Source of the DNA: Cloeon dipterum
Taxonomy: Eukaryota > Arthropoda > Insecta > Ephemeroptera > Baetidae
Direction of reading: 5' to 3'
Assembly (NCBI RefSeq): GCF_949628265.1
Contig: NC_088788.1
Coordinates: 1,674,001-1,738,000, forward strand
Length of the DNA stretch: 64,000 bases
Made by a program: the position numbers and the translations under genes. The notes under the pieces are model-generated. The model had not been told where the DNA came from. It worked only from the letters and a program-made list of their open reading frames with translations, and searched no databases. Shown here piece after piece: positions 14,299-64,000 of this stretch (position 1 is its first letter; each line of letters opens with the position of its first letter).

Positions 14299-17200
14299 CT
14301 AAGAGGCGATCGGGTCGGGCTCATCGAACAGCGACGTGCTCGACTGGCTGCTCGTCGGCGCCCCCTCGTCTTCGGGGTGCGCGTCAAAGTCGAGAACGAG
14401 CAGCTTCGTCTCCTCGGTGCCGTTGCGGCTGCCCACGGCGCACACGAGCGTCGTCTCCGTCGCCCTTATGCGCCAAACCACACCCCCCGAGCCGCCGCTG
14501 TCCAACGCGATCAGGTTCCTGATGAACTCACCTGGTAAATGATAATTTTTATTATTAGATGACATTTTTTCTTTAATAAAAATCTATGCTGAGCAAATTT
14601 CATCACTTTAATTAATTTAGCAGACGCAGGACGATATTGGCGGTGTCTTTTCCAGGTTTAAAATAATAATAATTCACTTTGTGACTCGGGGGATGAAATT
14701 ATGGCCAGTAGGGGTTGAGGGGTAAGGGGTGAGCAGCCTAAAAACTATTCAGCTCGCCAGGGGAAGTCAAGCCAAGTCGAACGGTGTGCAGTTTTTGCAT
14801 TTCTGACGGTTAAAATCCGCAAAAAATTTTAAAAACCCGAAATTTTAATTTAAATTTCTTAAAATTAAAGCTTAAAACTCCCTTTAAATTTCCTCACAAG
14901 TTTACATGTACTCTGAGACCACTTATGAGGAGCGTTTCGGATCTTCAAAGTATTTTAAAATAAAAAAACGGAAATTTTCGAAAATGACCCTTGATGACCT
15001 CTAATTATGTGTTCATTCGATTGGGCTTGACGAGAGGAGTTTAACGCATATTTTAACTTTTAAACTGCACCAATTATTTCATTCTCAAAATACGCCGCAA
15101 ATTCGGAAACCCCGCAAAAACGATTTTTTTTTTGGTTACTCATTGATTCAAGACTCACAGCAATTTGAGGCACTTCTGATCCACTTAAAAACATTTAAAC
15201 AGTGACCCGTTTTCAGACAAGGATAAAATTTAAATGCGGCTACACAATTGAAGTTTTGTCTTACCTGTTTTCACGTCCCACAGCTTGACCGTGCCGTCGT
15301 CCGAGGAGGTGATGACAAACTTGCTATTGAACTGGAGGCAGGTTACGGCAGACTGGTGCTTGTTGGGCCCTGAAAGCAGAGTGATGCACAAATTAGATTT
15401 TTTTTTCAAAAGGTGTTAGTGTTTTAAAATTCAGCAGTTGATAGCAGCGTCAAAAACTGCCTAAATTCAGAAAGCTACTGAGCAAAATTTTCTCGTTTAC
15501 TATTTTCGCACAAAATTCGTTTGAAAATTTCAACTGGCCGTTAAAGAACTGCTCAAGAAATACTCAAAATCAGGTTAATTTATTCAAGAGTCACTTCAGA
15601 TTTTTTTAATTTTAATAATTTCAAAACCTACCTGAGAGAGTCTGCAGACAGCGTCCAGAGACAATGTCCCAGACCTTGACGGTCGAGTCGGCATTTCCGG
15701 AAACGAGGATGCGGTTGCGCAGCTCCATGCCTGAGGTGAGCGACTGGTGGCCGATCAGCGTGTGCTTGAGGGTGCCGTTGCGCACGTCCCACACCCTGAT
15801 GCTCGTGTCGAGCGACCCGCTGACCACGTGCTTGCCGTCGAACTGCAGCGAGTAGACGCGGTTCGTGTGGCCCTGCAGCGTGTGCAGGCACTCCTCGCGC
15901 TCCGGGTTCCACACCTTGACCATGTAGTCGTAGGCGCCGCTGACCACCAGCTTGCCGTCGTACTGCACGCACCGCACCGCCGCCAGGTGGCCCACCAGCA
16001 CGTGCAGGCACACGCCCGTCTCGATGTTCCACACGCGCAGGGTTGCGTCGCGCGAACCACTCACCACCCTGAAAAATTAAAACGTTTGGGAACGTGAGAT
16101 TACAAGAAGGAACCGAAAATTATCGTGTTCTTTCCGGTGAGACGGCGATATTGACCAAAAAACTCAAATATAAGCGACGGCGTTCAGGTCGCGTGACCTG
16201 AGGAAGGTTGGTGACAAGCAAGGGTGATAAATCGTCACCGAGTATCACAAAACGTGCTCAAAATTACTGAAAAAGTATGAAAAACCGGCCTGAGAGCGGA
16301 TCTCAGGTCGGGATACCCTGAAAAAGGTCATATGGGTACCGCAGGTCAAAGCCCTTCCAAAGACCTGTCCGATGAGGGGTCGCAGTCCATGATCGGATGA
16401 ACGGCTGAATTTTAAGAAAAATAAAACCATTTTCGCCTGTGAACATTACGTGTCGCGGAGCCGAAAAAACTGAAAAAATTAATTTGAAAATTTCTATGGG
16501 AGCGAAAAATCTGAAAATCGGTTGTCAGACTGGCAGCGGTCCTGCGCGTGCGATAGAGTCGGCAAATCCCTTCAACTTTGCTCAGTTAAGAAAAAATAAT
16601 ATATTTTTGATTTCCCAAGTTAGCCTAGTGCAAAAATCACATTTTTTCAAAGTTCAAAATCCATCTCCTCCTAGGTTTTCGATCCGATCGGCTTGCATTT
16701 GGTCTCAATATTTCGCGTCGATTGAGGATCCTTTTTTTAATTTTCCCTGGACCGGAGATATGGCCGGCGGAAATTATTGAAAATTTCGACTTTTCCGAAA
16801 ATTTAGCAGAAAACAAAACGCGATAATTCGATAAATGGTCCGCTTTAAACGAACCACACACGGGTGGATGCGCCTCACCAAGGGGCGTCGATTGGTACCG
16901 AAATCAGCGCCGGCGGGCCCATAGGGCCCTGTCTGGGCCCCGAAAACCAAAGTTAGCAAGTGCCAGAAATCGCGTTTCTTCGATTTTAAAAATTAATAAC
17001 ATGACTCCTGTGGGGCACACAACAGAAATTAAAGTTCATCTGACTCGCTGTAAAATTCTGCATCTTTTGGGAAAAAACCCTTTGATGTCAGAGAGGACAC
17101 AAAAATTAAAAAAACCTCTACGACGTTAAAGTCTCCGAATTGAATTTTTAAAAAATATTTTCACTCACTTCTTGCCGTGGAGATGCATGCAGCGAACGGT

Positions 17201-39200: not shown

Positions 39201-42200
39201 ATCGTCACTGAAAGAAATAATACACTTTTTGCGAACCCTGTGGACGAAATAATGTCAAGCCTTGGATTAAAGCTAACTCTTTGAATGATAAAAAATGAAA
39301 TTCCAAGGTGGCTGTTGCTTTTAGATTTTCTTCTAGCAGAGTTTTGCTCCTTTTGCAGTGCCGGGAGACCCGCAGGACGTGAAGGCCATCATTCTCAACT
39401 CGACCACCATCAAGGTTGAGTGGCTGCCACCTCTGGAAAAGGACCGGCACGGCGTCATCAGGGGCTACCACATCCACGTTCAAGAGGCCAAGGAGGAGGT
39501 AACAAAATAATTTAAGTCTTCATCCTGAAATTTTTTAAAATTACAATTTTTTAGTTCGCTTTAGATTTAGATCAGCTATGGCTTCCATTTGATCCAAATG
39601 AAAATGAGGTTGCAGCCTTAAAATTCATTGTTTTGGAATTAAATCTTAAGATTTCTACAGATTGATAATTTTCAGGGCAAATCAATCATGACCACTCCGA
39701 TCCGCTTCGACATTCTGGAAAACTCGACTCGCGAGCACATCGTCAGCGGTCTGCAACCGGACACCAAATACTCGGTGCAGGTTGCAGCCCTGACCAGGAA
39801 GGGCGACGGCGACCGGAGCGAACCCAAAATCATCAAAACGCCTGGGGGAGTGCCGAACCGGCCGGCCATGAACCTGACGTGAGTCTCGGGCTGTCTCTTA
39901 TATTCTCGCCTAAATAATTTATAATTTTGGTTGCAGGGTTATTGACGAGGAGCCTGCGGCAGGTCTCGCAGTCCAGCTGCACTGGGGCAACCCTTCGCAA
40001 ACGTACGGCGAGCTGATCGGATTCCGGATCATCTATGGCGCCAGAGAGCTGAACAAAAGCACTGAAATTTTTAAGACTGCCTCTGAACACAAACACAAGT
40101 TCCGCGATTTGGGTGAGTGCTAGAAAAGCCTTAAAAGGATTTTTTATAATTAATTGTTGGGTTTCAGAGCGTGGTGTCGAGTACGAATTCCGTCTGGCTG
40201 GGCAAAACGTGGTCGGCTTCGGCCAGGAGAGCGTCCGTCACTTTTTAACACCAGAAGGTGTGCCAACCGGCTCTCCCTTCAACCTGACGCACCGCTTCCT
40301 CACGCCTGACATCGTTTCCTTGTCCTGGCATCCGCCGCCACGCAGCAAGCGCAACGGCAAAATCAACAGATACGACGTCAGATTCCAGAAATTCGGCTCG
40401 TCGGAACCCACAAGTCTGCGAAACACCACCACCAATAAGGTACCTCTATTTTTTTCACAAATAATTTTTTTAAATCACAATTTTTTGATATTACAGGCTG
40501 TCTTTGGAGATTTGGAAGAAGGTGCTCAGTACCTTTTCAGCGTTAGAGCTCACACATCCAAAGGCTCTGGTCCTTGGAGTGAAAATTCCCAACTCGTCGT
40601 GGACAAGGAAGGCGTCCGAGCGCCCCTCGCGGTCAACGCGGCTGCCACTACGGACTCGAGCGTTGAGGTTTGGTGGGAAACCGTGCCAATTCGAGGAAAG
40701 TTGATCGGCTACCAGGTGCGTCTCTCGTTCAAAACGTAAATCCTGCGGTACTTACGGTTTTCTAAAGGTTTTTTACACCATGACGCCTGTGGAAGACTTG
40801 GAAGTGTGGTCGCAGAAGTCGGTTGGCCTCACCAACTCTGTCGAGCTTGTCAATCTGGAGAAATACGCACAGTACGCGATTGCTGTGGCTGCCAGAACCA
40901 AATCGGTTTGTAGTTTTTTCCTGTTATATTAATTCAGGATTTTGGCTCCTGTTCTATGTGGATGGGATTTACTTTTTTTAGGATATTATTTTAGTAATGT
41001 AAGTCTCAAATTAAAAATTTAAATTTCGCAGGGTCTGGGAAAGCTGTCTGAAAAGATGACTGTGAAAGTGAAGCCTGAGGACGTGCCGCTGAACCTGCGT
41101 GTGACCGACACGAGCACGCACTCAATAGTGCTCTCGTGGTCCCCGCCAATCCGATCAAATCCTGTTAACTACAAGGTGAGCCTCAACCCTGCCTGGCGCC
41201 AGTTGTAGCTGACTGAATTGCATTGATTTTCAGATCACTTTGGAGTCGACCAAGCAGTTTGTGGACGCGCAGGGCATCACCCAGACGGCGCATATCATGC
41301 CCAGGACCATCCTCGTGGAAAACAGCGTCACCAGCTACCTGGTCAACGACTTGTCGCCTTTCACCACCTACAATGTCAACGTCAGTGCTATTCTCACTGA
41401 CCAGCAGTACAAACCACCCGCAAAGATCACCGCTACAACGCAGATGGCTGGTTAGTGTTTTTATAAAATTGAAAATGAACCCAGGTGCCACCTCCGCCGC
41501 CTCCAATGCCCCCAAAATCTGTGCTATTTCAAAGTTTTTTGTTTCATTTTATTTTTAAAATACCCTTATGAACAGGATCTCGATTCCAACTTCAAATAAT
41601 TAAAAATTGAATATCAGAATGCATCAATGATATAAATTTCTTTTAATTTACAGCTCCTCAGCCAATGGTGAAGCCTGACTTGTACGGAGTAGAAAATGAA
41701 GAGATGATTCAAGTGATTTTGCCGCAAGCGTCAGAAGAATTCGGCCCCATCAGCCACTACTTCCTGATTGTGGTGCCTGAGGACAAATCCAACGTTCACA
41801 AGTATCCTGATGCCTTCCTCACTGATGATGTAGGTTCATGTTTCTGACACTGATTGCCCTTATTTGACACTCTACTCTTCAGTTGCTGGCCGGCAAGGGA
41901 AAGAAGGGAGACCGCGAAAACGCTCCATACATTGCTGCTAAATTCCCTCAAAGAAACATTCCTTACACATTCCCGTTGGGTACAGGCGAGACGCACGATG
42001 GCTACATCAACCGGAAGCTCATTCAAGGGAAGAGGTACAGGATATTCGTCCGTGCGGTCGTCGATACGCCTCAAAAGGTTTGTAAATAAAAAATCTCTTA
42101 AATAAACCAAACAAATAAAATCAGCAAAGTTATGCATTCTGGCGCAAAAGACGAACAATTGACGCGTTTTGTCACGGGGAGGCGTATTTTCAAATTAGAA

Positions 42201-45200
42201 ACCAAATCGGGCCCATAGGTAAATTTAAAAAAAAGTAATAATAAAACCAAACGCTTTAAAATGAATGTTTGGGGCGGGCAGTGGCGGTAATCATACCTAA
42301 AAGACGCAGAATTTCAAGGCGAGTCTGATGCGTTTCGTTTTTTTACTGTATTACCCATAGAAGCTGAGTTATTAATTTTTAAAGTCGAAAAAACGCGAAT
42401 TGTGACATTTCAAAAATTGGTTTTCGGGGCCCAGGCGGGACTTTATTGGTCAAGTAGCACCGATTCCGGTACCAATCGTTACCCCTTGATGAGGCACGTC
42501 TGCCCGTGTGTGGTTTTCAAAATCGGACCATTTTTGGATTTTTTATGAATTTATTTAGGCCAATTTCTCGAAAAAGTTGGAATTTTTATAAAATGGTTTT
42601 ATTTTTATTAAAATTCGGCCGTTTGTGCGATCGTCAACCACGAACCCTCATCAGACAGGTAGGTCTTTGATTGGGCTTTTACCAAGGATACCCTAGCAAC
42701 CTTTTTCAGGGTACCCAGACCTGAGATCTGCTTTGAGGCCGGTTGATTATGCTTTTTTATTAATTTTGAGCACAAATGACGATACTCGGTGGCGATTACT
42801 CCCCTTGCATGTCAATGGCGTTCCTCAGGTTGCGTGACCTGAGGATTATTTTGCAGTTTTGCTGGCGTCGTGGCTTATATTTGAGTCTTTTGGACAATTT
42901 CGCCTCCTCGACGGTCACTCGACAGGGGGCGCAAGCCACTTGTTAACGAATAATATATTTTTTAACTATCTATCAGATAAAAACACAATTATTTTGCAAC
43001 ATTTCTATTTGTACTTGGCAGCACCTGTACACGTCGAGTCCGTTTTCGGAGCCGCTGAGCCTGGACATGCGTCAGGTTCCACCTGGGGAGCCGCCGCGTC
43101 GGCCAAGTCCGGACATCACAATCAACAGCTCGAATGACGTCGGCGTGCAGCCGAGTAAAGCCGAAATGTGCCTCTTGTGCATTCTGGGCCCAGTGGCCGC
43201 CGGCCTCTTCTTGGCCATCCTCGTCGTCTTGATCATGTTCAGAAGGTATTTCAGTTAATTTTAATTTAATTTGCGATGGTTACCGTTTGGATCTGCTTCC
43301 AGTCGGAGGCGTCGGCCGTGCAAGTCGCCGGAGCAGGCGGCCGTGTTGGCACCGCTGATGTCCAGTCCTGAAGCCCTGAGCTCGCTGCCCATCGCCCCAT
43401 CGGACCCTGTCGAGATGAGGAGACTCAAGTTCCAAACTCCAGCCATGATGTCCCATCCGCCAATTCACATCGCCGACTTGGCTGACCACATCGACAATCT
43501 CAAGAATAACGACAATCTCAAGTTTTCCCAGGAATACGAGGTAAAATTCTAATGCGAAACAATTAAGCACGAAATAAATGAATTTCCGACGGTTAAAATA
43601 TGAGATTAGTCGGTCACATTCACCAAAATTCGGGTTTTTCTCAAATTCTCAAAATAGGAGCCGAACGTCACCATAAATTTTTCACACTTGCTCTGAGACC
43701 ATTTTTGAAGAGCGTTTCTGATTTTTAAAGTATAGCCCTGGTTTATAAAATCCTAAAAAACACCCAAAATTTTCGAAAATGACCTTTGAACGTTCCCAAT
43801 GACCTCAAATTTGGTGTTCATTCGATTGGGCTTGACGAGAGGATTTAATTGCATACCTTAACTTTTAAAATAATTAATCGCATTCTCAAAATTCGCCTAA
43901 AATGTCCCGTAAAACCTGCAAAATTTCCGTCAGATGATCTTGACACAGATAAATTCCTTAATTTTCTTAATTTTTCCCCTGAAACCAACAAAATTTTGCA
44001 GTCCATCGAGCCTGGACAGCAGTTCACGTGGGACAATTCCAACCTAGACACGAACCGCAGCAAGAACCGATACGCGAACGTGATCGCGTACGACCACAGC
44101 CGCGTGATCCTGAACTGCATCGACGGAGTGCCAGGCTCGGACTACATCAACGCCAACTACTGCGACGGCTTCCGCAAGCAGAACGCGTACATCGCCACGC
44201 AGGGTCCGCTGCAGGAGACGTTCGCCGACTTCTGGCGCATGTGCTGGGAGGCACGGGCGGCCTCCATCGTGATGATGACCAAGCTGGAGGAGCGCGCCAG
44301 GATCAAGTGCGATCAGTACTGGCCCTCCAGAGGCTCCGAAACCTACGGCAACATCACGGTCACCGTCAATGACACACAGGAGCTGGCCACCTACTGTATC
44401 AGAACCTTCCAGGTCAGTTTTCTTTAGTGTAAATCATTGGCATGGAGTAACAGAAGAGAAATTCGTGCTCAAAATATTCCTGGGAAGAAAGCTACAGCTT
44501 GTGCAGACATCTGCGCATGCCCAGCAAGAGCAGTGAGGTTAAAAAGCAGTTTGAGAAGTCACGTGACTCAATCCCGCCGTCTCATTGGCTAAGTATCTTT
44601 GCTAACTCCCTTCCGTAATCCCTCCTAACAGCGCGTGCCTGCTCTCGGCCAATGAGATGGCGGGATTGAGTCACGTGACTGCTTGTGTTCTTCACTGGGT
44701 AAGCGCAGATGTCTCTACTGTCGCCTGCACAAGCTGTAGCTTTCTTTCCAGACATATTTCGAACGCGAATTTCTCAATTGAAATTATTAAAAAAGATGAG
44801 AATATTGCTAGGGGGTGAATTTCGAGATTAAATGGTCCAGAATAATCAACTCCTTGGAAATATCTGCAGGTGGCGAAAGCGGGAGTGCCGGAGCGGCGGG
44901 AAATGCGACAGTTCCAGTTCACAGCATGGCCCGACCACGGAGTTCCGGACCACCCGGCTCCATTCCTGCTCTTCTTGCAGCGCGTGCGGTTTCTCACGCC
45001 AAACGAGTGCGGGCCGATGGTGGTGCACTGCAGCGCCGGGGTCGGACGCACCGGTTGCTTCATCGTCATCGACTCGATGATCGAGCGCCTCAGGAATGAC
45101 AAGATGATCGACATTTACGGCCACGTCACATGCCTGAGAGCGCAGAGAAACTACATGGTTCAGGTGATACACTGAGAATCCTGCTTAATATTGTTTTTAA

Positions 45201-51562: not shown

Positions 51563-52492
51563 CTCAGAATAGAAGTCGCAAGTTGGCTGAATGCACACCA
51601 TCTACACGATGTGTGCTTCGCCAGTCAAGGGGTTTGGGCTTCTCACAAATTTACTTGCAGGCGAATACATATGCACTCGCCCCCACTTAGTGCCTGCTCA
51701 GGGTATAGGTTCGTCTATTTTAAATATAGGCGAAGGTGCACTCTTACAGCGAAAATTCACAATACATTGGTTCGCGCGAAACTTATACAATTCAAATTTT
51801 GATAGCGCTTGTGTGTAGGGGACATAGTGGAAGGAATAGAGTAATAAAAAAATTAAAATAAATTATTCTCTTTTCGAATAATTACGTGTCTGATTTAATC
51901 TTAAGCCAATGAACTAAACAACGTTATAATCTTAAAAGTCCGAATTTAAATTAAAGAAAAAATCGACATGTTTTTTTATTTAGGACTTTAAACAGCCTGT
52001 TTTAAACAGAAGAAATCGGGTAAAATGCGTGTTTTACAATCCAGAAATTTTCCAACCCCTGTTTGAGAGTAAATTTGTTACTATTTTTTTTCAATTTTAA
52101 ATCTGTTTCCAAGCAGCTGCAAAAAACCAAATAAAAATTAATTTCTTAATCATTTTAAACACATTCACGTCGAGGAAATCGTGTAACCTAGTTTTGGTGT
52201 ATTTAAATAGCGAACCAAAATTCCTGAAATATTAAATTAATTATTTTAAGCACATTCCCGTCGCAAAAACTATTAATCTTACAAATCAGAATTTTAAATT
52301 TGAAAAGAAAAATCGAAGTGCTTTCCACTTAGGACATTTAACGATCAATTTCAATCAGAATTAATCGGGCGGAAAGCGCGTTTAACACTCCAGAAATTTC
52401 CCAACCCCTGCTTGAGAATAAATACTAATTTTCATAACATTTTTATTTTTTAAATTACAGTTTCCGAGCAGCCGCCAAAAGCCAAAAAAATC

Positions 52493-53821
52493 ATGTCTGA
52501 CGACAACTCACCCGTTGCTGAGGAGAAGAAGAAGGGCAGGGGCCGCCCCGCCAAGAAGGACGTTGGAGAGGAGAAGAAAGTGAGTAGAAATTAAATTATT
52601 TCTCTGTTAACAATTTGAGAGCAATCAATCCAATTTATTTTAATTAATTTGTTTTACCACATTCTAATATTCGAACTGTTTATTTTCTTTAGGAAACCCC
52701 CGCCGCCAAGAAGCGCGGTCGCACTCCTGCCGAGAAGTCTGAGGAGAAGAGTGGCCCCTCACCCGCCAAGCGGGGACGCGGAAGGCCAAAGGGCTCCGGG
52801 AAGAAAGCAGCCTCTAAGGCGAAGGCAAAGGTTGGAAATTTGTCAACATTCTCTGCTAATTGTTCCCTAAAAGAATGGGCATTGGCCCCCAAATTGAGCC
52901 TTGGAAGGCGAAAGGGTTGAAGGGGGGAAAAAGCCGCCCCTAAGCAATTTAAGGGAAAAGACTAAAAAAACAGGATTCCTCTTGAAAATCAGAAATTTAA
53001 TTAAATCGAAATGTCTAGCGTTTCAAAAAGTCCTCGGTGCGCCCTTCCCATCCTCGGGCAGGGATAAAAAGAGCCAAAAATAAATCTAATTCACCAGTTG
53101 CATAAACCCTAAGTGTTCGAAGCCGCCAACAGTTGGCGCCACCGTAGACTTTCGATTTTTAAGGCACTTCCGCTGCGATTTTAGACTCAATCTAGCTACC
53201 GTGCATTCTTCAATTAATTTGCTAATTTTTGACGTGCTGAAAACCAAAATCGGTTCAGCCAATCGCCGCAGAATCGTGAAAAACTATTTTTTGAAATAAA
53301 AAAATCTTTTCCAACGTTTCTACGGCGAATGGCTGAACCGATTTTGGTTTTCAGCACGTCAAAAAAAAGCAAATTAATTAAAAAAAGGAAAATAGCTAGA
53401 TTGAGTCTGAAATCGCAGCGGAAATGCCTTAAAACCGCTTAAAACAAGATTTTTAAGAAAGTCTGTGGTTACGCCATCTGTTGGCGGCTTCCATAACTAA
53501 GGGTTTATGCAACTGGTCAATTAATTTTTCAAAAAAAAAAAATAGGTCCTTTTAGGGCCAGTGTAAATTTTCTGACAAATTTTAAGCGAAAAAAATTTCA
53601 ATGGAAGAAACCAGCTTTCTGAATATAGGCAGTTTTTGACAAACGGTTTACTTTTCCTGTAATGTTTTTATTAGAAAAAAATATTAAATAATATTTTCCT
53701 GATGTTGCAGAAGTCGACCAGTTCAGGTCGCGGACGTGGCCGGCCTCGCAAGGCGGACAAGGAGGAGAAGGAGGCCGAGAGCGCCGGCGAGGAGGAGGAG
53801 GAGGAGGATGACGCTGAATAA
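52493..53821 (+). CDS. HMGA: AT-hook chromatin protein, HMGA-like
   Basis: Small nuclear architectural protein expected to bind the minor groove of AT-rich DNA. Exons: 52493-52579, 52693-52830, 53711-53821, all phase 0, giving 111 codons. An acceptor at 52,460 places 32 nt of 5' untranslated sequence before the ATG. Three good AT-hooks (core RGRP) lie at about residues 16-20 (KGRGRPAKK), 55-59 (KRGRGRPKG) and 81-86 (GRGRGRPRK). There is a weaker RGRTP in exon 2. The tail is strongly acidic (GEEEEEEDDAE). Size, hook spacing and acidic tail match animal HMGA and insect HMGI proteins. Its donor at 52,831 (GTTGGA) is weak, but phase and content support it. Intron 2 carries a MITE. Confidence 0.9.
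53093..53517. mobile_element. MITE with ACCAGTTGCATAAACCCT ends, family E, copy 1
   Basis: The terminal inverted repeats ACCAGTTGCATAAACCCT and AGGGTTTATGCAACTGGT (one base varies on the right) enclose arms with GCCGCCAACAG, GGCGCCACCGTAGAC and the CGTGCTGAAAACCAAAATCG palindrome. It lies in intron 2 of the AT-hook gene. A near-identical copy starts at 55,557. Confidence 0.9.
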
Positions 53822-54722: not shown

Positions 54723-57700
54723 ATGTACCAGGTCGCAAGGAACCTTTTTCTGCTCACCCTGATGGCCGTGCGCGCTCGGACGGAGCGGCGCGACATTTTG
54801 ATAGCGGAGAGTGACGCCCAAAGAGTCGGCGACAAGTTTGTCAGCTTCTCGGTCGACCCTGAAATGCTCTCGGAACACACCTTCACAAGGTAACGAACGC
54901 TATTTTATAGCGGATAATAAAAAACTAGATATTGTGACGAAATGCAAGCTATGCAACCTGCTCGACATAAAGTTTTAACGGGTTGCCTAATGGTGAAAAT
55001 TGTAAGGAGTTTTAATTATTGATTATGTATGTTTATTTATTCTCACCTTAAAAAAATGTACATTCATGTTAAAAAACAGTTTGTCAAAAATGAAAAAAGC
55101 ACATAGTGAGAAAAGGCATCAACGCTGTAAATTTTTTAGAAAAGTGGCTGCAAATTTAGCACTGTCTCTTAACTTGAAAAAAAAATTATTTCTCTACAAA
55201 GAGTTTCCCTAAAAGGTATTAAACGCTGTTGGACACATCTCGACGATAGAGGAATCGAAATCTGCTTAGAAAATGTGGTCAAGCGCTGCAAATTTTTAGG
55301 AAATCTCGAATTTTTCTCTATATTTTTTATTATTGCAACAATTCAAATAATTTTAATTTGTCGCCATGTAAATCCGCTTCGAAGCAATTTATCTACACGA
55401 TCCCAGGCTGAATTCTAATTGTGTCCAAGAGTAACTGATACTGGCAATTAATTAGTTTACGCGGAAATTATTTCTCTTCTTCTGTTAATTAATTATTTTG
55501 AGCACATTCGCGTCGAGAAAATCGTTAAAACAAGTTACTGTGAATTATTTAAATTGACCAGTTGCATAAACCCTTAGTTATTAAAGCCGCCAACAGATGG
55601 CGCAATCACATACTTTCTTAAAAATTTTGTTTTAAGCGGTTTTAAGGCATTTTCGCTGCGATTTCAGACTCAATCTAGCTATTTTGCTTTTTTTAATTAA
55701 TTTGCTTTTTTTTGACATGCTGAAAACCAAAATCGGTTCAGCCATTCGCCGTAGAAACGTTGGAAAAGATTTTTTTATTTCAAAAAATAGTTTTTCACGA
55801 TTCTACGGCGATTGGCTGAACCGATTTTGGTTTTCAGCACGTCAAAAAATAGCAAATTAATTGAAGAATGCACAGTAGCTAGATTGAGTCTGAAATCGCT
55901 GCGGAAGTGCCTTAAAATTGAAAGTCTACGGTGGCGCCATCTGTTGGCCGCTTCGAACACTTAGGGTTTATGCAACTGGTGAATTGTGAAAATAAATTTC
56001 TTAAATTTCAAATTAATTGGTTTGCACTCTTGGAAATTAATTCCTCTTCTTTGGTTAGTTAAATTAAATATTTAAAGAACATATTCGCGCAAAAAAAATC
56101 GGGTCACTAAGTTTCTGTTAATTTTGAATGCGAACCAAAATAAATGAAATTTCGAATTAATTAGTTTGCAATCCAGGAAATTGATTTCTCTCCTGCAGTT
56201 AGTTAAATCAATTATTTTAAGCACATTCGCGTCGAGAAAATCGTGTTAATTAGTTTCTGTGAATTTAAATTGTGAAAATAAAATCCTTGAATTGTGAATT
56301 ACTTATTTTTCACTCCCGGAAATTAATTTCTCTTCTTTGGTTAGGAAAATTAGCTTTTCTGATAATTGTAAAAATAATAAATTAGAGTAAAACGTAGATT
56401 TAAAATTAAGATTTTACCTTATTAATAAAAAAATCGTCTTTTTGCTCTTTGAAAATCAAATCATCCAGAAATTCGAATACTCGTCTCTTCCTGTAAAAAC
56501 TAAAAATTCTGAATTCAGCTCGGAGCTTGACGAGCTGCACGAGATGACTCATCAGTTGGGCCCCGCGTTCCTGCAACTCTCAGGACCGTGGTGCCAGAAG
56601 TACCACTTGGAACGCTACGCTCCGGCCAATTATTCTGGCCCCGTCGTCTCAGGCAATTATTTTCTATTCTAAATTATATTTTCACTCTAGAATATTATGT
56701 CAGAATAGGCGAAACGGTGCAGATGTTGGCGCAGACAGTTCAGCAGGCTGGATTCACGCTGGTCGTCTGCCTCAATCCGACCCTGAGGAACGCCGACGGC
56801 ACCTGGAACGCGACCGAGGCGCGGGAGATCCTCGAGATTCTGCACTTGATGGAAATCAATATTGCAGTGCAGCTTGGACATAGTAATTTTTAAATTTGGT
56901 CAAAAATGTTGTGATTATTTAATTTCTGTAAATAAACAGAAAGATTAGAGAACGAGCCTGAAGTAAGCGGCTGGCAGATGGGAGTGGATTTAGTGGCGCT
57001 CTACAACCTGTTGCAAGAATTTCCGCGATTTCGATCGGCGCTTATAATTTCGCCCGACATCTCGCCGTCGCTCAAACTGAAAGACAAAGTGAAATTCGAT
57101 CAAATCTTCCGCACAGCTGGATCCAGGATTGACAACGTCATTTTACACTCAAGGTGAATATTTTTAATTAAATTAATTTTTGAAACTATATGCGAATGGT
57201 TTTAGCGACTTTACTCCGGAATTGGGTCCTGGCAGCGAGAACATGGGCACAACAATTGATTCCGCTTTTACAGAAATGTCTGTAGAACGGTGGGACATTT
57301 TCAACGATCTCACCCTGCACAAAGCAGCGAAAAAACCTTTGTGGATCAGTAAGTTCCCCATTTTCTAGATTTAAATTATTAAAAAAATTCCAGGTGATGC
57401 TGGAAAGTGGAAAGGCCGTTTCGTGGACGCGATGGTGTCAATTTCCAAACTGGGCCACGCGGCCAAATCGAACGTGGACGTGGTGCTGCAGAAACCTACC
57501 CTCCGGAGCTTCCGCCGGCCGACCGCGGTAAAGCCGCAAAAATCTAAAATTTTATTAAATTAAATTTCTATAGGAATTCTGGGTGTCGGCGCTGCACAAG
57601 CGGCTTGTCGGCCAGACCGTGCTGGACGTCAGCTTTGTCGAGCACCGCGAATTCGGGGATGAGACGCACCTCTTCGCGCACTGCTCTCCGCAAGGCGGCG

Positions 57701-59969
57701 TCACGCTTTTTGGAGCCAACTACCGCCCTAAACCCGTCTCGCTGAGGGTGAAAGATGTTGGGGTGGACACAGAGATCAACGTCTTCTCCCTCACGCCGAG
57801 GAAAAAGAATATCTTTTCTCGGTAGGTATTTTTTAAATTGTGGCGAAAAAAATCGTAATAATTCGAAAAATGGTCCGATTTTGTAAATTCGCACAAGGGC
57901 GGACGCGTCCCACCGAGGGGCATCGATTGGTACCAAAATCGGTGCCATCCGGCCCATAGGGCCCCGCCTGGGCCCCGAAAACAAAAATTTTGAAATGTCA
58001 CAAATCGCGTTTTTTCAACTTTAAAAATCAATAACTCGGTTTCTATGGGTCGTAGAGTGAAAAACCAAACTTTTCCAGATTTTCCATAAGATTTTACGTA
58101 TTTTAGGTACCTTTGCCACCTCCGCCAACATTTTATATGAATATAGAATATAATAAACAGATTTATCACGCTATCACCGTCTTTGACTTCTTTTTAGGAT
58201 GGTGTTGTTGAACAGGCAGCGGCCAAATGTGTCTTCTGAGTGGATGCAGCCGTTGGTGTTGGCGCCACAGAGCAACGACAGCGTCGTGATGCTGCACATG
58301 CCATCGACCTCAATTGTCTTCTGGCACATGCCGCACGCACAATTTGACGCCTGCCTCACGCATCAAGGAGAATCGCAGGAGATTTGGCCTCGAGATACGA
58401 GGTGCTGGTGTTTTTCTTTTTGTTTTTAATTAGTCTTGTTAGAAATAATTATAATTTGTGTGTACAGTTTGGCTCTGAAGGACGAAGAGGAGTTGTTGGA
58501 AGAAACGGAAATGAAGCAAAATTGCACTGCTCATGAGCCGAGTTATTCGACTTTCCTGCGCCGGTTTATTCGCTTCCTCAAAGCCGAGGACTCTGGGGAG
58601 GGAATCAGGACCAAAAGGGCCGCCCCGGACAGGTTGCAGCCGTATAATAACAAATTTCTTCAGAGGAGCAGTAGAAAACTCAATCCAGAGAAGAGGCAAA
58701 TCGCTGGTTAGTACAATTAATTAAAATGGCATCCTGCAGTTGTAAAAATAAATATTAAAAAATTAATAAATAAATAATCGGGATGTACGACAGCTCGGGC
58801 AAAATATCATTTCACGGCAGTTTTTTTTTTATTTCGACTTTTTCAAAAAATCGGCAGAAAAAAATTCATAAAAATTCTAAAAATAGTCTGGTTTTCAAAA
58901 ACTAAACTTGGGCAGATGCGCCTTACTGAGAAGCATCGATTAGTACCAAAATCAGCGCCATCCGGCCCATAGGGCCCCAAAAACAATAATTTGAAACGTC
59001 ACAAATCGCGTTTTTTCGACTTTAAAAATTAATAACTCGGCTTCTATGGCACGTAGATTAAAAAATTAAAGTTTTAAAGACCCGCCGTAAAATTTTGCGT
59101 CTTTTGGATCCGATTGCTGCAGCCACCCTTCCCGCCACCGCCGCCGCCCCAAAATCTGCGCTATTTTAAAGTGTAAATTTGGTTAATTTTTATTATTTAA
59201 ATTCCTCTATGGGTCGGATTTGGTTTCCTTCTTAAAAATACGCTCCCCAGAAACAAATCGCGTCGATTGCTTGGGTTTTGCGTCAAAATTCGCAACTTTG
59301 CCGATTTTAACCAGAACAACATTTTCGGCTGTTGCATTTACATTGTAAAAAAAATAATAACTTTAATTAATTTAGATTTTTTGATGGGAGCTGGTGCCAA
59401 GTTTCGACATTGGGCGTGGACCGTAGGCAAGATATTCGGCCATCAGACGAGGAGCCGAAAGGGACGATTTCAGGCAAGAAAATCGATGCCGAAGCGGATG
59501 GTGCATCACTTGAGCAAAAGTCAGAGATACGCGGACGCGTGGCCAAAGGTCGCGCCTCTCAGGGCACTCTCAGGACACCGCATCATCGGCAGGAAGCTTG
59601 ACAACCAAAAATCCGAAAAATCCACGGAGATCACCACTAAAAAAGGTATCTAAAAACAATTATTAACTGGCTAAAATGACACAATTTATTTTCAAAGAAT
59701 CGGAAGGAGTGGAAATTGGGCGCGTGAAGAGGCAGGGGGACAACGACCTGTACGAATTTCAGTTTTTGAACGAGGAAGACCTGAATAATTTGCCCGAATA
59801 CCAGCCTTCTTCTTTGACCGAATCGCAAAAAATGGAGAAACTCCACTCCATCAACAAGTTCTTTCGGTCGATGAGCGACATTTTGTCCTCTATTCGCCGC
59901 AAAGTGGTGTCTGTTTCTGCGCCAAACCTCAATGTCCTCAATGCCACTGACACGAAAAACAATAACTAA
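54723..59969 (+). CDS. Heparanase-like protein 1 (GH79 family, altered active site, long C-terminal extension)
   Basis: Exons: 54723-54889, 56519-56652, 56691-56882, 56940-57153, 57206-57348, 57394-57527, 57574-57821, 58198-58401, 58468-58706, 59376-59645, 59698-59969. Phases fit, giving 738 residues. Residues 1-18 are a signal peptide (NLFLLTLMAVRA). Then comes a heparanase/GH79 barrel (NEP at 169-171, KKPLWISDAGK at about 278-288) and the C-terminal beta domain (EFWVSALHKRLVG, HLFAHC, SIVFWHMP), ending about 464 where vertebrate heparanase ends. The family cleaves heparan sulfate outside or in lysosomes. The nucleophile, Glu in the vertebrate WLGET motif, is Asp285 here, so activity is doubtful. 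Residues 465-738 are an extension with furin-type sites RTKR (526-529) and RVKR (657-660) enclosing a very basic stretch. The intron before 56,691 is a 38-bp GC-AG intron. The 56,940 acceptor could shift by 9 nt. Confidence 0.85.
55110..55330. repeat. Family G repeat fragment in heparanase-like 1 intron
   Basis: It shares CACTGTCTCTTAACTTGAAA, GAGTTTCCCTAAA and CGCTGTTGGAC-type segments with 20,985-21,545 and 30,880-31,150. Confidence 0.55.
55557..55981. mobile_element. MITE with ACCAGTTGCATAAACCCT ends, family E, copy 2
   Basis: It has the same ends and internal palindrome as 53,093-53,517 and the same 425-bp length, but is inserted in the opposite sense. It lies in intron 1 of the heparanase-like 1 gene. 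Flanking sequence reads AAATTG on the left and GAATTG on the right, so a duplicated ATTG-like target is possible but not certain. Confidence 0.9.
57835..58100. repeat. Family C repeat fragment (copy 5)
   Basis: Reverse-orientation piece with GGGGCATCGATTGGTACC and GGCCCATAGGGCCCCGCC. It lies in the intron 57,822-58,197 of the heparanase-like 1 gene. Confidence 0.7.
58800..59240. repeat. Family C repeat fragment (copy 6)
   Basis: It has GAAGCATCGATTAGTACC, GGCCCATAGGGCCCC, the CCGCCGCCGCCCCAAAATC segment and CTATGGGTCGG. It lies in the intron 58,707-59,375 of the heparanase-like 1 gene. Confidence 0.7.
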
Positions 59970-60219
59970 TAGTCTGTAAATTATTCCTTTTGTTTGAGTA
60001 ATAAATTTTATTTGTTTTGAAACTGCTACACTTTTTATTGCAATGAACTACATATTGACAAGGGCAAACAACCTTTTTCGAAAACATCAGCGAAATTTGA
60101 AATGAAAACAATTACGCCGGCGGCAACCTACAAAATCGTTCAGTGCACTGCGCCAACTTCAGTTTAATTGGAACCTCCGCCCTGTTTGCACCTGGAAAAT
60201 TCTTTTTATACAGTTAAAA

Positions 60220-63200
60220 ATGCGGCTGTCGTGGCTGCTTTTGTTTTGTCTGTCCGTGTCGCGGGCAGAAAGCGCTCTGATCAACACGACGGCGGCCTCG
60301 CACATCGTCAGCAAGAACTTTATCAGCGTCACCCTGGATCCGTTTCTCATTTCCGACTTGCCCTGGGCTGATCCGTGAGTTATATACACTGACAATTAAA
60401 TATTTAATTGTCTGCATTAACATTGGAAAAAAATAATTCAGGCTGACAGTGAAGCTGTGCAAACAACTCAGTCCTGCCTGGCTCAAAATCGCGCCAACTG
60501 ACGACTCGCTCGACTATAAACTCTTCAATTTAACTGGTAAGACTTTTACAAAATTCGTTGATTTATTTTTTTAATTTTTACGAAGTTTCTGAGCTCACCA
60601 ATCGATTCCTGAGGGTCGAATTAGTTAGAGTAGATGTTTTTTCTGTTAAAAAAGTGCAGCGCGACGTGGCGAACTTTTTTCCCGCCAAAATAATAAAAAT
60701 GTGAGAAGTGCGCATGCGTGAGAGCTGGTTTAAGCACTTGCAGAGAGGCCGCCTGTGCGAATGAATTCTTTGTCACATCCAGCCAGCTCTGACGCATGCG
60801 CACTTCTCACATTTTTATTATTTTGGCGGGAAAAAAGTTTGCCACGTCACGCTGCACTTTTTTAACGGGAAAAACATCCACTTTACCTAATTCGACCCTC
60901 AGGAATCGATTGGTGGGCTCAGAAACTTCATCAAAGGCGGTCTTTCATATAATTTCGATAATTTCAGTCTTCCAATGGGCGGCACTGACCCACTTTGCCT
61001 CCGAATCGGGCCTGGTTCAAATGTGGGACGTCGGAATTTTCGAAAGAGCCGTTTTGGACTGGGACCGCACCCTGAGGAAGGGAGTTTTCCCCATTTCAGT
61101 CGCGCCGCCAACCAAGCACGGTATTAAAAAAAATCAAAATCCTATTTTCCTCCCATTAAAAATAAAAAAATCTAGATTTTCCACCAGCAGCCGGTGAAAT
61201 GGCGTTTTCGTCGAGCGCAGCCGACCTGCCGAAGGTGCAGACGGTCAAATCGCTCATGTCCGGATACGACGGCAAAAATCTGAGCGTTTTCGCGCCAGAA
61301 ATGAGCTATTTCGCCAGCTACAAAGATATAGAGCAGTTTTCCTCGTGGCTCGTGGAAAACGTGGACAAACTGAACGCAATCAGCATGAAACCGTATATAC
61401 ACGCGTAATTTGTTTCAGATGAGGAATTTATATATTTACGCTTGATTTAGATCGAAACTGATCGGCTCGGGAGACCTGTCGGCCTCGTCCGTCGTGAGCA
61501 AGGAGGCCGGCGACCTCTTCAAACTGGAGCTGATGGTGCTGGGCGCCCTCGAACAACTTGGAGCTGCGCGCAAGCCCATTGCTATAAGTGAGTTTTTTTA
61601 TTTATATTAATTGTGAATACCTGAGATGATTGATCGTTAATATATATTGTATTTAAAAGAAAAACTTGTACTCAATTTTTAATTTAAAAAATTGTCATGT
61701 CCGTGGTTTGACACCTCAGCAAAAATAGAAAATATTATGAATTTAAATGAGAAAACTTCTATTTTAATGATAATCACTTGGGAGTGCATAAAATCATTCT
61801 TGCCTGTTTGAAAAATTAATTAAATAATTTTTAAACAGAAAAATTAATTGTAGGATGAATTTTTGCTTTTGTTTTATGATTTAAATTCAGAATCTTTTCT
61901 ATTCTTGCTGAGAGGTCAACAACTTAAAACCGCGGATGCTGAAAAACTAATTAATTATGTTTAAAAAAATTATAATTTAATAAAAACTATTTTTTAATTA
62001 TTATTTTAAATCTAAAAAATTACAGTCAAATTTTAATGCTGATTTTTGCTTCCCATCATCGATATTTCAGGCGATGCGAGAATTTCCTGGGAAGATGAAT
62101 CAGCCCTGCAGAGTTTCGACGACACCTTCGCTTCCACCCTTTTGTGGGCCGACCGACTGGGCCAGGCGGCGGCCCTCGGCGTCTCCACCGTCTTCCAGCC
62201 GGCGTTAATTCCCTCGCACGACAAAGGAAGGAGACTCCAACCCAGCACAGTAGGAAAAAAATTATAACATCCCCTTATTAATAAAGTTACAATTTTCAAA
62301 ATCAGGACTTTTGGTTCGCCGTTCTGCACAAAAAACTGATGGGCGAGCGAGTGCTCGCGGTTCAATCGGACGCGCTGGGCAACCGGTCCGCCAGTTTTTT
62401 CGCGCACTGCACAGCTGTCGGCGGCCGCCACGGGGTGTCAGGCGCCGTCACCGTTCTCGGCGTGAATTTGGGGTCGGCGCCCTTGCGAGGAAACGTCTCC
62501 AGTTGGTCTGCCGGACGCGAAAATGTCACCCTCAACCAGTACGTTTTGCACGGAGACCTCGAAGGAAGGTAGGAAATTGGCAAATATTTTTTAATTGGCG
62601 CGGAAATTTTTTTTAAGCTCGAATTAAATATATTAAAATGACGAAATATAGCTCTCACTGTCAAAGATCGAATTTTAACTCTAAATGACTAAGTTTTAAC
62701 TTTAAAAAATGTTTAAATGCTAACCAAATTTAAGATTTTTCCAAATTTCGCGAAAATTAAATTATTTTTCAATTGATATCGAACTCTTTTGAAGAAAAAT
62801 TCCATAAATTGTGAAATAAGTCGTGATTTTACAATAAAAGGAGACGCAGATTAAGCATTAAAACTTTAAAACCGATTTTTTCACAAAATTTAAAGGGTAA
62901 AACTTGGAAACTTTTTAGCTTTTTCCTAATTTTTAGAAAATATTTCAAGTAAATAAAATTAAAAGGCTATTTTATAATTTTTCTTTCCATTTTAAACCTG
63001 TTCTATTTAACGAAAACGCCAATCAATCGAAATCTCTGAATTTAAAATTATTTTTTTAATATTTTTAAACCTCAATTTTTCAATTTTAAATTCATTTATT
63101 TTAAATTATGAAATATTAATTCCTTCAGGAATGTGATGCTGAACGGGAAGACGCTGTTCGTCGACTTCGACTCAGGGGAGCTGCCCGTTCTAGAGCCGGA

Positions 63201-64000
63201 AACCCTGACCACCCCTGAGGAAGTGGTGCTGCCGGGCCACTCGATCGTCTTCTGGGTGGTGACCGACCTGGGCGCCGCCGCCTGCGTGGACGGCCAGCGA
63301 CCCAAGCGGTCGACGACCCCGGACGAGGAGGACGACCCCGAGACGACGCACCTGGCCATCGTGTTTCCCGTGGAGGAGGTGCGCGAGGCGGAGCGCGCGA
63401 TGCAGTCGGAGCCGAACCGCACCGCCGAGTGCGATCAGTGTCCGGCGGGTTGCAGCCCCACGACGAGCGCCGGCTGCCGGGTTGGAGGGCTGCGCATCGT
63501 CAAGCCCAGCTGCTCCACCGCCGAGTTCCTGCAGAAAATGAGTTTCATCCTGAAACAGCGCCGCAGCGGCTGCTGCTGCGACGGCGCCGTCGCCTGCCGC
63601 GACGACGCTAATAATAATAATAAGCCCGTCGTGGAAAGGGTCGACCTGACGTCCGCCCCACCGGTCATCACGGCCAGCCTGGAGGAGCTGATCACCACCA
63701 TCTTCACCTCCCCTCCGACCTTTTGGCCTCCGGGAAAACGCACCACGGACGAGAACGAGTCGTCGAGCTCGCAGCCGGCGCAGAGACTCGATGAGCACAC
63801 GACCAGCAAGCTGAGTGTTTTCAACCTGGACCAGGAGAAGTACAGGACGAGCTACCTCACCCTGGTGCCGTCCACCTCCGCTCCTTCCCCTCAAACCACC
63901 CCAAGCACCCCCCAGAAAACCGAGACTAATAATCCTCAGCCGGCGTTCGCTGGGAAAACGCCTCCGAACCGGCCGCCTCAACCCCTTCATCCCTACCGCT
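60220..64000 (+). CDS. Heparanase-like protein 2 (GH79 family, active site lost, partial at window end)
   Basis: Exons: 60220-60374, 60442-60536, 60968-61120, 61176-61404, 61451-61587, 62071-62249, 62306-62568, 63129-64000 and on past the window; at least 694 residues. Residues 1-16 are a signal peptide (LLLFCLSVSRA). Heparanase features include KQLSPAWLKI near the N-terminus, RKPIAISDAR at about 252, DTFASTLLWADRLG, DFWFAVLHKKLMG, FFAHC, and a beta-domain end at AAACV about 457. The Asn-Glu-Pro acid/base motif is absent (the aligned region reads PAAGEMAFSS) and the nucleophile is Asp258, so I expect no glycosidase activity. After RPKR (461-464), a furin-type site, comes an extension with a Cys-rich block (CDQCPAGC...CCCDGAVAC), then a Thr/Ser/Pro-rich stretch running off the window. 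It starts 250 bp after gene 1 and shares intron positions with it. Confidence 0.85.
60577..60946. mobile_element. MITE family B, copy 3, left end truncated
   Basis: It shares the GAATCGATTGGTG, GTGCAGCGCGACGTG, TTTTGGCGGGAAA and GCATGCGCACTTCTC arms with 3,657-4,031. The right end reads GGCGGTCTTTCAT, so the TTAA is lost, and the left outer segment is missing. It lies in intron 2 of the heparanase-like 2 gene and contributes most of it. Confidence 0.75.

Follow-up and report, generated by a model that had tools for sequence, protein, structure and literature searches.

We analysed a stretch of 64,000 nucleotides from the genome of Cloeon dipterum (contig NC_088788.1, positions 1,674,001 to 1,738,000 of the forward strand), which is referred to as the window. 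The window sits on contig C3 of a genome of 190 Mb in 10 contigs, which contains above-cut-off matches to the odorant-receptor family PF02949, regarded here as specific to insects. Its right end carries a tandem pair of heparanase-like genes in the same orientation, whose products are probably catalytically inactive, with 250 bases between the two coding parts. We refer to them as gene A and gene B; their coordinates are positions within the window, and their exons were spliced by hand. Gene A extends from 54723 to 59969 and encodes 738 amino acids in 11 exons. Gene B starts at 60220, runs past the window edge by 341 bases to its stop codon, and encodes 807 amino acids in 8 exons. A previous reading made from the nucleotide letters alone (the sequence-only reading) had assigned the pair to 54723–64000, and two spliced genes can indeed be read there, but position 64000 is the edge of the window and not the end of gene B.

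All exons are on the plus strand. In gene A, exon 1 (54723–54889) encodes a short hydrophobic N-terminus, a possible weak signal peptide, and the beginning of the GH79-like core. Exon 2 (56519–56652) is followed by a GC donor and an intron of 38 nucleotides, the weakest splice call of the model. The last base of exon 3 (56691–56882) opens the acid/base-place codon, A|AA (Lys), and exon 4 (56940–57153) encodes RLENEPEVSGW..., in which the nearby NEP is an alternative acid/base candidate. Exon 5 (57206–57348) terminates in WIS, with the S codon split by the intron, and exon 6 (57394–57527) contains the codon at the nucleophile place, GAT (Asp), at 57396–57398. The C-terminal beta domain follows in exon 7 (57574–57821), and exon 8 (58198–58401) finishes the core (DAC) and begins the tail. 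Furin-like motifs occur in tail exons 9 (58468–58706; RTKR, residues 526–529, at 58607–58618) and 11 (59698–59969, including the stop codon; RVKR, residues 657–660, at 59721–59732), and exon 10 (59376–59645) encodes basic tail sequence. In gene B, exon 1 (60220–60374) encodes the signal-peptide-like sequence MRLSWLLLFCLSVSRAES, and exons 2 (60442–60536) and 4 (61176–61404) are coding exons. The last base of exon 3 (60968–61120) opens the acid/base-place codon, G|AT (Asp); exon 5 (61451–61587) terminates in AIS, again with an intron-split S codon, and exon 6 (62071–62249) contains the nucleophile-place codon GAT (Asp) at 62073–62075. Exon 7 (62306–62568) encodes the C-terminal beta domain. Exon 8 (63129–64000 up to the window edge, with 341 nucleotides more to the stop) finishes the core and encodes a furin-like RPKR (residues 461–464, at 63298–63309) and a tail rich in Cys and in Ser, Thr, and Pro.

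Repeated elements were observed in and near both genes. A foldback element of about 440 nucleotides occurs in two copies, at 53088–53528 and at 55552–55985, the second within intron 1 of gene A; 278 nucleotides of the copies are 86% alike in direct register, and arms of 366 nucleotides are 96% complementary. Another element of about 270 nucleotides is present twice in gene A, in intron 7 (57846–58116) and intron 9 (58859–59117), the copies being 78% alike. Intron 2 of gene B contains a large hairpin (60576–60935) with arms of 153 nucleotides that are 93% complementary and a spacer of 54 nucleotides.

A search of the solved structures with phmmer identified heparanase as the best match of both proteins. 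The best structure for A was the heparanase chain 9o1x_A (residues 110–464, E = 1.8e-13), and human heparanase 5la4_A was matched at E = 4.8e-13; for B, the best structure was 5la4_A (residues 272–457, E = 3.1e-17). The same genome contains a canonical heparanase gene, here gene C, and when A and B were compared by hhalign with a profile of C and human heparanase (HPSE), the probabilities were 99.6% and 98.8%, respectively. Identity to HPSE over the aligned core was 95/391 (24.3%) for A, 93/400 (23.2%) for B, and 41.5% for C. The Pfam model PF03662 (Glyco_hydro_79n) did not match A or B at E ≤ 10, and it matched spliced C at 5.8e-22. A and B keep two C-terminal-domain Cys, which in human heparanase are those of HCT and of the final AC. 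Furthermore, seven core introns are common to A, B, and C, in identical order and with the phases 2, 1, 1, 2, 1, 0, and 2. As judged from these matches and from the gene structure, the resemblance of A and B to heparanase is not due to chance, and they are remote heparanase (GH79) relatives by descent.

Gene C is located on the same contig as A and B, 2.36 Mb off (C3, 4094531–4097431, minus strand), and encodes 600 amino acids. Its locus was first flagged, below the cut-off, in a genome search with PF03662 (C3, 4.095–4.097 Mb); the spliced protein passes this cut-off and matches 5la4_A at 3e-92. It has both catalytic Glu, in LGNEP and WLGETG. After its leader, hydrophobic residues 81–99 form a predicted N-terminal transmembrane stretch, which gives C a membrane-anchor-like N-terminus, whereas human heparanase is secreted. 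C terminates four residues past its last Cys, without a tail and without RXKR. C shares the seven core introns and their phases with A and B, but differs from them in LGNEP, WLGETG, the predicted transmembrane helix, and the tail-less end. Among the best-scoring candidates of genome searches with PF03662, A, B, and C, no GH79 locus was found beyond these three, i.e., there are at least three genes.

The place of the human nucleophile, E343, is occupied by Asp in both A and B. In all three genes, the codon ahead of the nucleophile spans intron 5 (phase 1) (C, WLG|ETG; A, WIS|DAG; B, AIS|DAR), and the Asp of A and B is assigned to the E343 place because an intron of the same position and phase stands just before the Glu of C. 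The same placement was obtained with hhalign for A and B and with an unanchored MAFFT alignment. HMMER also places the Asp of A at the nucleophile, with low local confidence; its local match of B starts past the nucleophile and carries no weight for B. We also used an exon-anchored alignment of the core from intron 2 onward, which forces the nucleophile match by construction and was not counted as support for it. On this evidence, the nucleophile Glu is changed to Asp in A and B, and the change from E to D described in the sequence-only reading (WISDAG and AISDAR) is confirmed by intron position and phase, hhalign, and unanchored MAFFT. In the exon-anchored alignment, A is shortened directly after the nucleophile.

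The acid/base Glu (E225) has probably been lost in both genes, with Lys in A and Asp in B, although this loss is less secure than the nucleophile change. The acid/base codon spans intron 3 (phase 1) and reads G|AG (Glu) in C, A|AA (Lys) in A, and G|AT (Asp) in B. HMMER and hhalign likewise put the Lys of A under the catalytic E225. The residue preceding this codon is Asn in C and in human heparanase (N224), and His in A and B by intron position. To describe the substrate cleft, we took 13 substrate-contact residues of human heparanase from passages of PMC8157885. C keeps 9 of these 13 listed contacts. In the exon-anchored alignment, A and B keep 2/13 each, and in the unanchored alignment they keep 3/13 and 2/13, respectively. 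Of the contacts, A and B still have D62 and K274, to which the anchored alignment adds H296. The His of B at the H296 place fits the intron, and that of A is displaced from it by one residue.

The relationship between A, B, C, and human heparanase was analyzed with these four as the taxa of the tree test. In the exon-anchored alignment, 19 site patterns paired A with B, and the two alternatives were represented by 5 and 3 patterns. The P values of the alternatives in the approximately unbiased (AU) test were 0.05 and 0.02 with LG+G4, 0.014 and 0.007 with LG+C20+G4, and 0.03 and 0.01 with WAG+G4. In the unanchored alignment, the patterns were 15, 5, and 5, and the alternatives were not rejected (AU p = 0.105 and 0.144). 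Because A and B have long branches, their attraction is also possible. The claim that the change predates the duplication is therefore favored by the pairing of A and B in the exon-anchored alignment, although the alternatives stay acceptable when no anchor is used. Most simply, the shared Asp, plus the shared His provided that the anchor is correct, would predate the tandem duplication, and the difference between Lys (A) and Asp (B) at the acid/base place would have arisen after it. A and B would then be the products of a DNA-level duplication of a C-type heparanase gene, plus a tandem duplication.

Both genes have long open frames, of 738 codons over 11 exons in A and 807 codons over 8 exons in B. 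All acceptors are AG, and all donors except one (GC, intron 2 of A) are GT. The GC content at third codon positions (GC3) is 0.66 in A and 0.76 in B. When random substitution of 0.5 per site was simulated, the mean number of stops was 26 for A and 23 for B, and the minimum of 50 runs was 17 and 16, respectively. The two halves of the core differ in their similarity to human heparanase. In the exon-anchored alignment, identities in the barrel exons were 107/233 for C, 54/216 for A, and 44/219 for B, and those in the C-terminal exons were 48/138, 36/131, and 44/132, respectively. The interaction between gene and domain was significant for B (p = 0.0006) and for the pooled pair (p = 0.002), where the tests assume independent sites and the pooled test joins two related genes. 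Our reading is that the catalytic half (the barrel) may have been released from constraint and the C-terminal half held.

Past the core, A has 275 additional residues and B has 351. The A tail is basic (net charge +15) and includes a stretch of 40 residues with a net charge of +12, and the B tail has nine Cys and abundant Ser, Thr, and Pro. The RXKR furin-like motifs lie at residues 526 and 657 of A and at residue 461 of B, just past the core. No significant likeness was detected between the two tails (best E = 0.38), so a shared tail function is not evident, and against the rest of the genome nothing significant was found (one match of the B tail, E = 2.3; none of the A tail). A Pfam SKA1 match on the A tail (E = 0.0008, under its cut-off) was judged to be chance. 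The start of B is signal-peptide-like and that of A weaker. The net charge of the core is −6 in A, −12 in B, and −8 in C, and that of human heparanase over the printed stretches is +16; the core of C is acidic too, which makes charge less informative for or against binding. The only strongly basic stretch is in the A tail, and heparin-binding motifs in A and B were no more frequent than in shuffled sequences.

Based on these results, we consider it likely that A and B are intact and probably secreted GH79 pseudoenzymes, which would have arisen by duplication of a heparanase gene and a tandem duplication, would lack hydrolysis, and may be binding modules. That they would not hydrolyze heparan sulfate is well supported, because the nucleophile is Asp, the acid/base Glu is probably lost, and most of the listed contacts are lost. 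The sequence-only reading had already suggested, from the nucleophile, that they might be pseudoenzymes; this idea is strengthened, and on a wider basis, by the probable acid/base loss, the lost contacts, and the open frames. The fold would serve as a secreted non-catalytic binding module, mainly through the better-kept C-terminal domain, and would act on matrix glycans or on active heparanase; convertase cleavage would part the core from the tail. This secreted binding or regulatory role is the weaker part of our interpretation and is suggested by analogy to HPSE2 and to the beetle GH28 pseudoenzymes.

However, several observations weigh against this interpretation. First, the acid/base site can be aligned in other ways. 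Gene A has a NEP five residues past the Lys assigned by the intron, and the Glu of this NEP falls under E225 in unanchored MAFFT; the acid/base region of B is aligned differently by unanchored MAFFT and hhalign; and the shared change from N224 to His is seen only in the anchored alignment. Exon-by-exon comparison with shuffled sequences showed no excess for segment 1 in any pair (z = 0.9–2.3), for segments 2 and 3 of A and B (z = 0.8 and 1.0), or for segment 4 of B and C (z = 0.9), so parts of the alignment of B depend on intron position alone. Second, some chemistry is preserved: Asp retains the carboxylate of the nucleophile Glu, and in the anchored alignment all three genes have His at the H296 place and Lys at the K274 place. 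Third, an alternative exon might supply the Glu, which the sequence-only reading had named as a refutation. Among the intronic AG acceptors before the nucleophile, each read in the phase required by the exon, Glu was obtained from 0/2 in A (intron of 45 nucleotides) and from 0/13 in B (483 nucleotides), but an exon-internal AG in B (exon start 62095) places a Glu there in frame, with the loss of 24 nucleotides, or eight residues. We grade the use of this acceptor as unsupported. In A, the exon-internal acceptor that gives Glu (exon start 57408) was rejected, as it removes 14 nucleotides and shifts the frame. Fourth, the splice sites were picked to keep the frames open, so this openness is partly by construction, but the shared intron phases guard against that. 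Finally, the contrast between the barrel and the C-terminal domain was not significant for A alone (p = 0.077), and heparan-sulfate binding finds no support in the core charge or in the motif counts.

Other explanations were weighed against the same evidence. It is possible, although we are doubtful, that A and/or B are the insect counterpart of HPSE2, binding heparan sulfate or active C and restraining its activity. Passages of PMC12406646 describe HPSE2 as having no activity, binding heparin, inhibiting HPSE1, and sharing about 40% identity with HPSE1, with Gly381 at the nucleophile and the acid/base Glu262 retained. Within the searches made, the genome similarly has one canonical heparanase and two relatives, and the 40-residue stretch of the A tail is strongly positive. 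However, A and B probably lack the acid/base Glu that HPSE2 retains, and their identities to HPSE1 are below 40%. The cores are acidic, there is no motif excess, and strong basicity is restricted to the A tail; a role as a heparan-sulfate-binding protein, decoy, or regulator, as proposed in the sequence-only reading, is hypothetical. A broader scheme, which we offer only as speculation, is that insects would have an intact heparanase and a secreted, doubly inactivated tandem pair, evolved independently of vertebrates, with convertase-freed tails that checks the enzyme or its substrate, i.e., a convergent version of the HPSE1/HPSE2 arrangement.

It is unlikely that the heparanase-like fold is mainly a carrier and that the functional product is a convertase-released tail, basic in A and rich in Cys and in Ser, Thr, and Pro in B. 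Such long tails and RXKR motifs in A and B, neither of them present in C, are consistent with this explanation. However, the tails do not significantly resemble each other or the rest of the genome, RXKR easily arises in basic sequence, and it is the C-terminal part of the core that is better kept. Still less credible is an altered yet active glycosidase that uses Asp as the nucleophile or, in B, an Asp/Asp pair in some other mechanism. Both proteins do have a carboxylate at the nucleophile place, and B, as judged from the intron, has one at the acid/base place too; the H296 place holds His, assigned from the intron in C and B and from the sequence alignment in A; and a Glu lies five residues from the acid/base place of A. 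However, the intron-anchored acid/base residue of A is Lys, few listed contacts are kept in either protein, and A is shortened after the nucleophile. The altered mechanism proposed earlier is unlikely, least so for B with its carboxylates at both places. Finally, decaying pseudogenes or non-coding remnants resembling genes would fit the far greater divergence of A and B than of C, the odd 38-nucleotide intron with its GC donor, and the repeats within some introns, but they are highly improbable given the long open frames over 11 and 8 exons, the splice signals regular except for one, the GC3 values, and the many stops produced by simulated drift.

Other genes were observed in the window. Exons for fibronectin-III and tyrosine-phosphatase domains at 40053–44427 possibly belong to a single LAR-like receptor-type phosphatase. 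LAR is a receptor of heparan sulfate proteoglycans, but this neighborhood by itself is no evidence of a link to A and B. A WD40-repeat exon of a beta-propeller protein is located on the minus strand at 15624–16076. A small gene at 52454–53821 is rich in GRGRP motifs and appears by eye to be AT-hook/HMGA-like; no Pfam match was found at E ≤ 0.001 in the two exons scanned.

At the sequence level and for this insect, gene C contradicts the printed view that insects lack functional heparanases. Proteins called heparanase are mentioned in passages on a bumblebee and a fire ant (PMC9604461; PMC6279166). Our literature searches of open-licence papers found no insect GH79 pseudoenzyme among the matches listed. 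If our interpretation is correct, the pair would be evidence that inactive heparanases originated at least twice, through different residue losses, and would permit a comparative test of why a non-catalytic heparanase fold is kept. The loosened barrel and the better-kept C-terminal domain point to the part for first testing.

Among the known systems, human HPSE1 (PDB 5la4 and 5e8m) is similar to A and B in its detectable core homology and in the pair of C-terminal-domain Cys. In contrast, A and B have lost the nucleophile Glu, most of the listed cleft contacts, and probably the acid/base Glu, and have added tails. The hyaluronoglucuronidase PDB 7eyo, which we take to be a leech enzyme, was matched by A (3.1e-12), B (4.9e-11), and C (3e-65); it is named as a hyaluronan-degrading enzyme, unlike A and B. 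Inactive duplicates of a glycoside hydrolase are also found in beetles, in which, according to PMC6549527, GH28 pseudoenzymes occur beside active copies and have a measured importance. These are similarly insect duplicates, but they belong to another family, with pectin as the substrate and a digestive role. HPSE2 is similar in being a heparanase relative without a usable nucleophile beside an active heparanase, and is stated to be absent in Ecdysozoa in PMC12406646. Our comparison with HPSE2 is based on descriptions in the literature. No HPSE2-named chain was present among the solved structures matched. As judged from their predicted proteins, A and B differ from HPSE2 in the residues lost (Asp and not Gly at the nucleophile, and probably Lys or Asp at the acid/base place), in divergence (lower identity to HPSE1), in their long tails and tandem arrangement, and in lineage.

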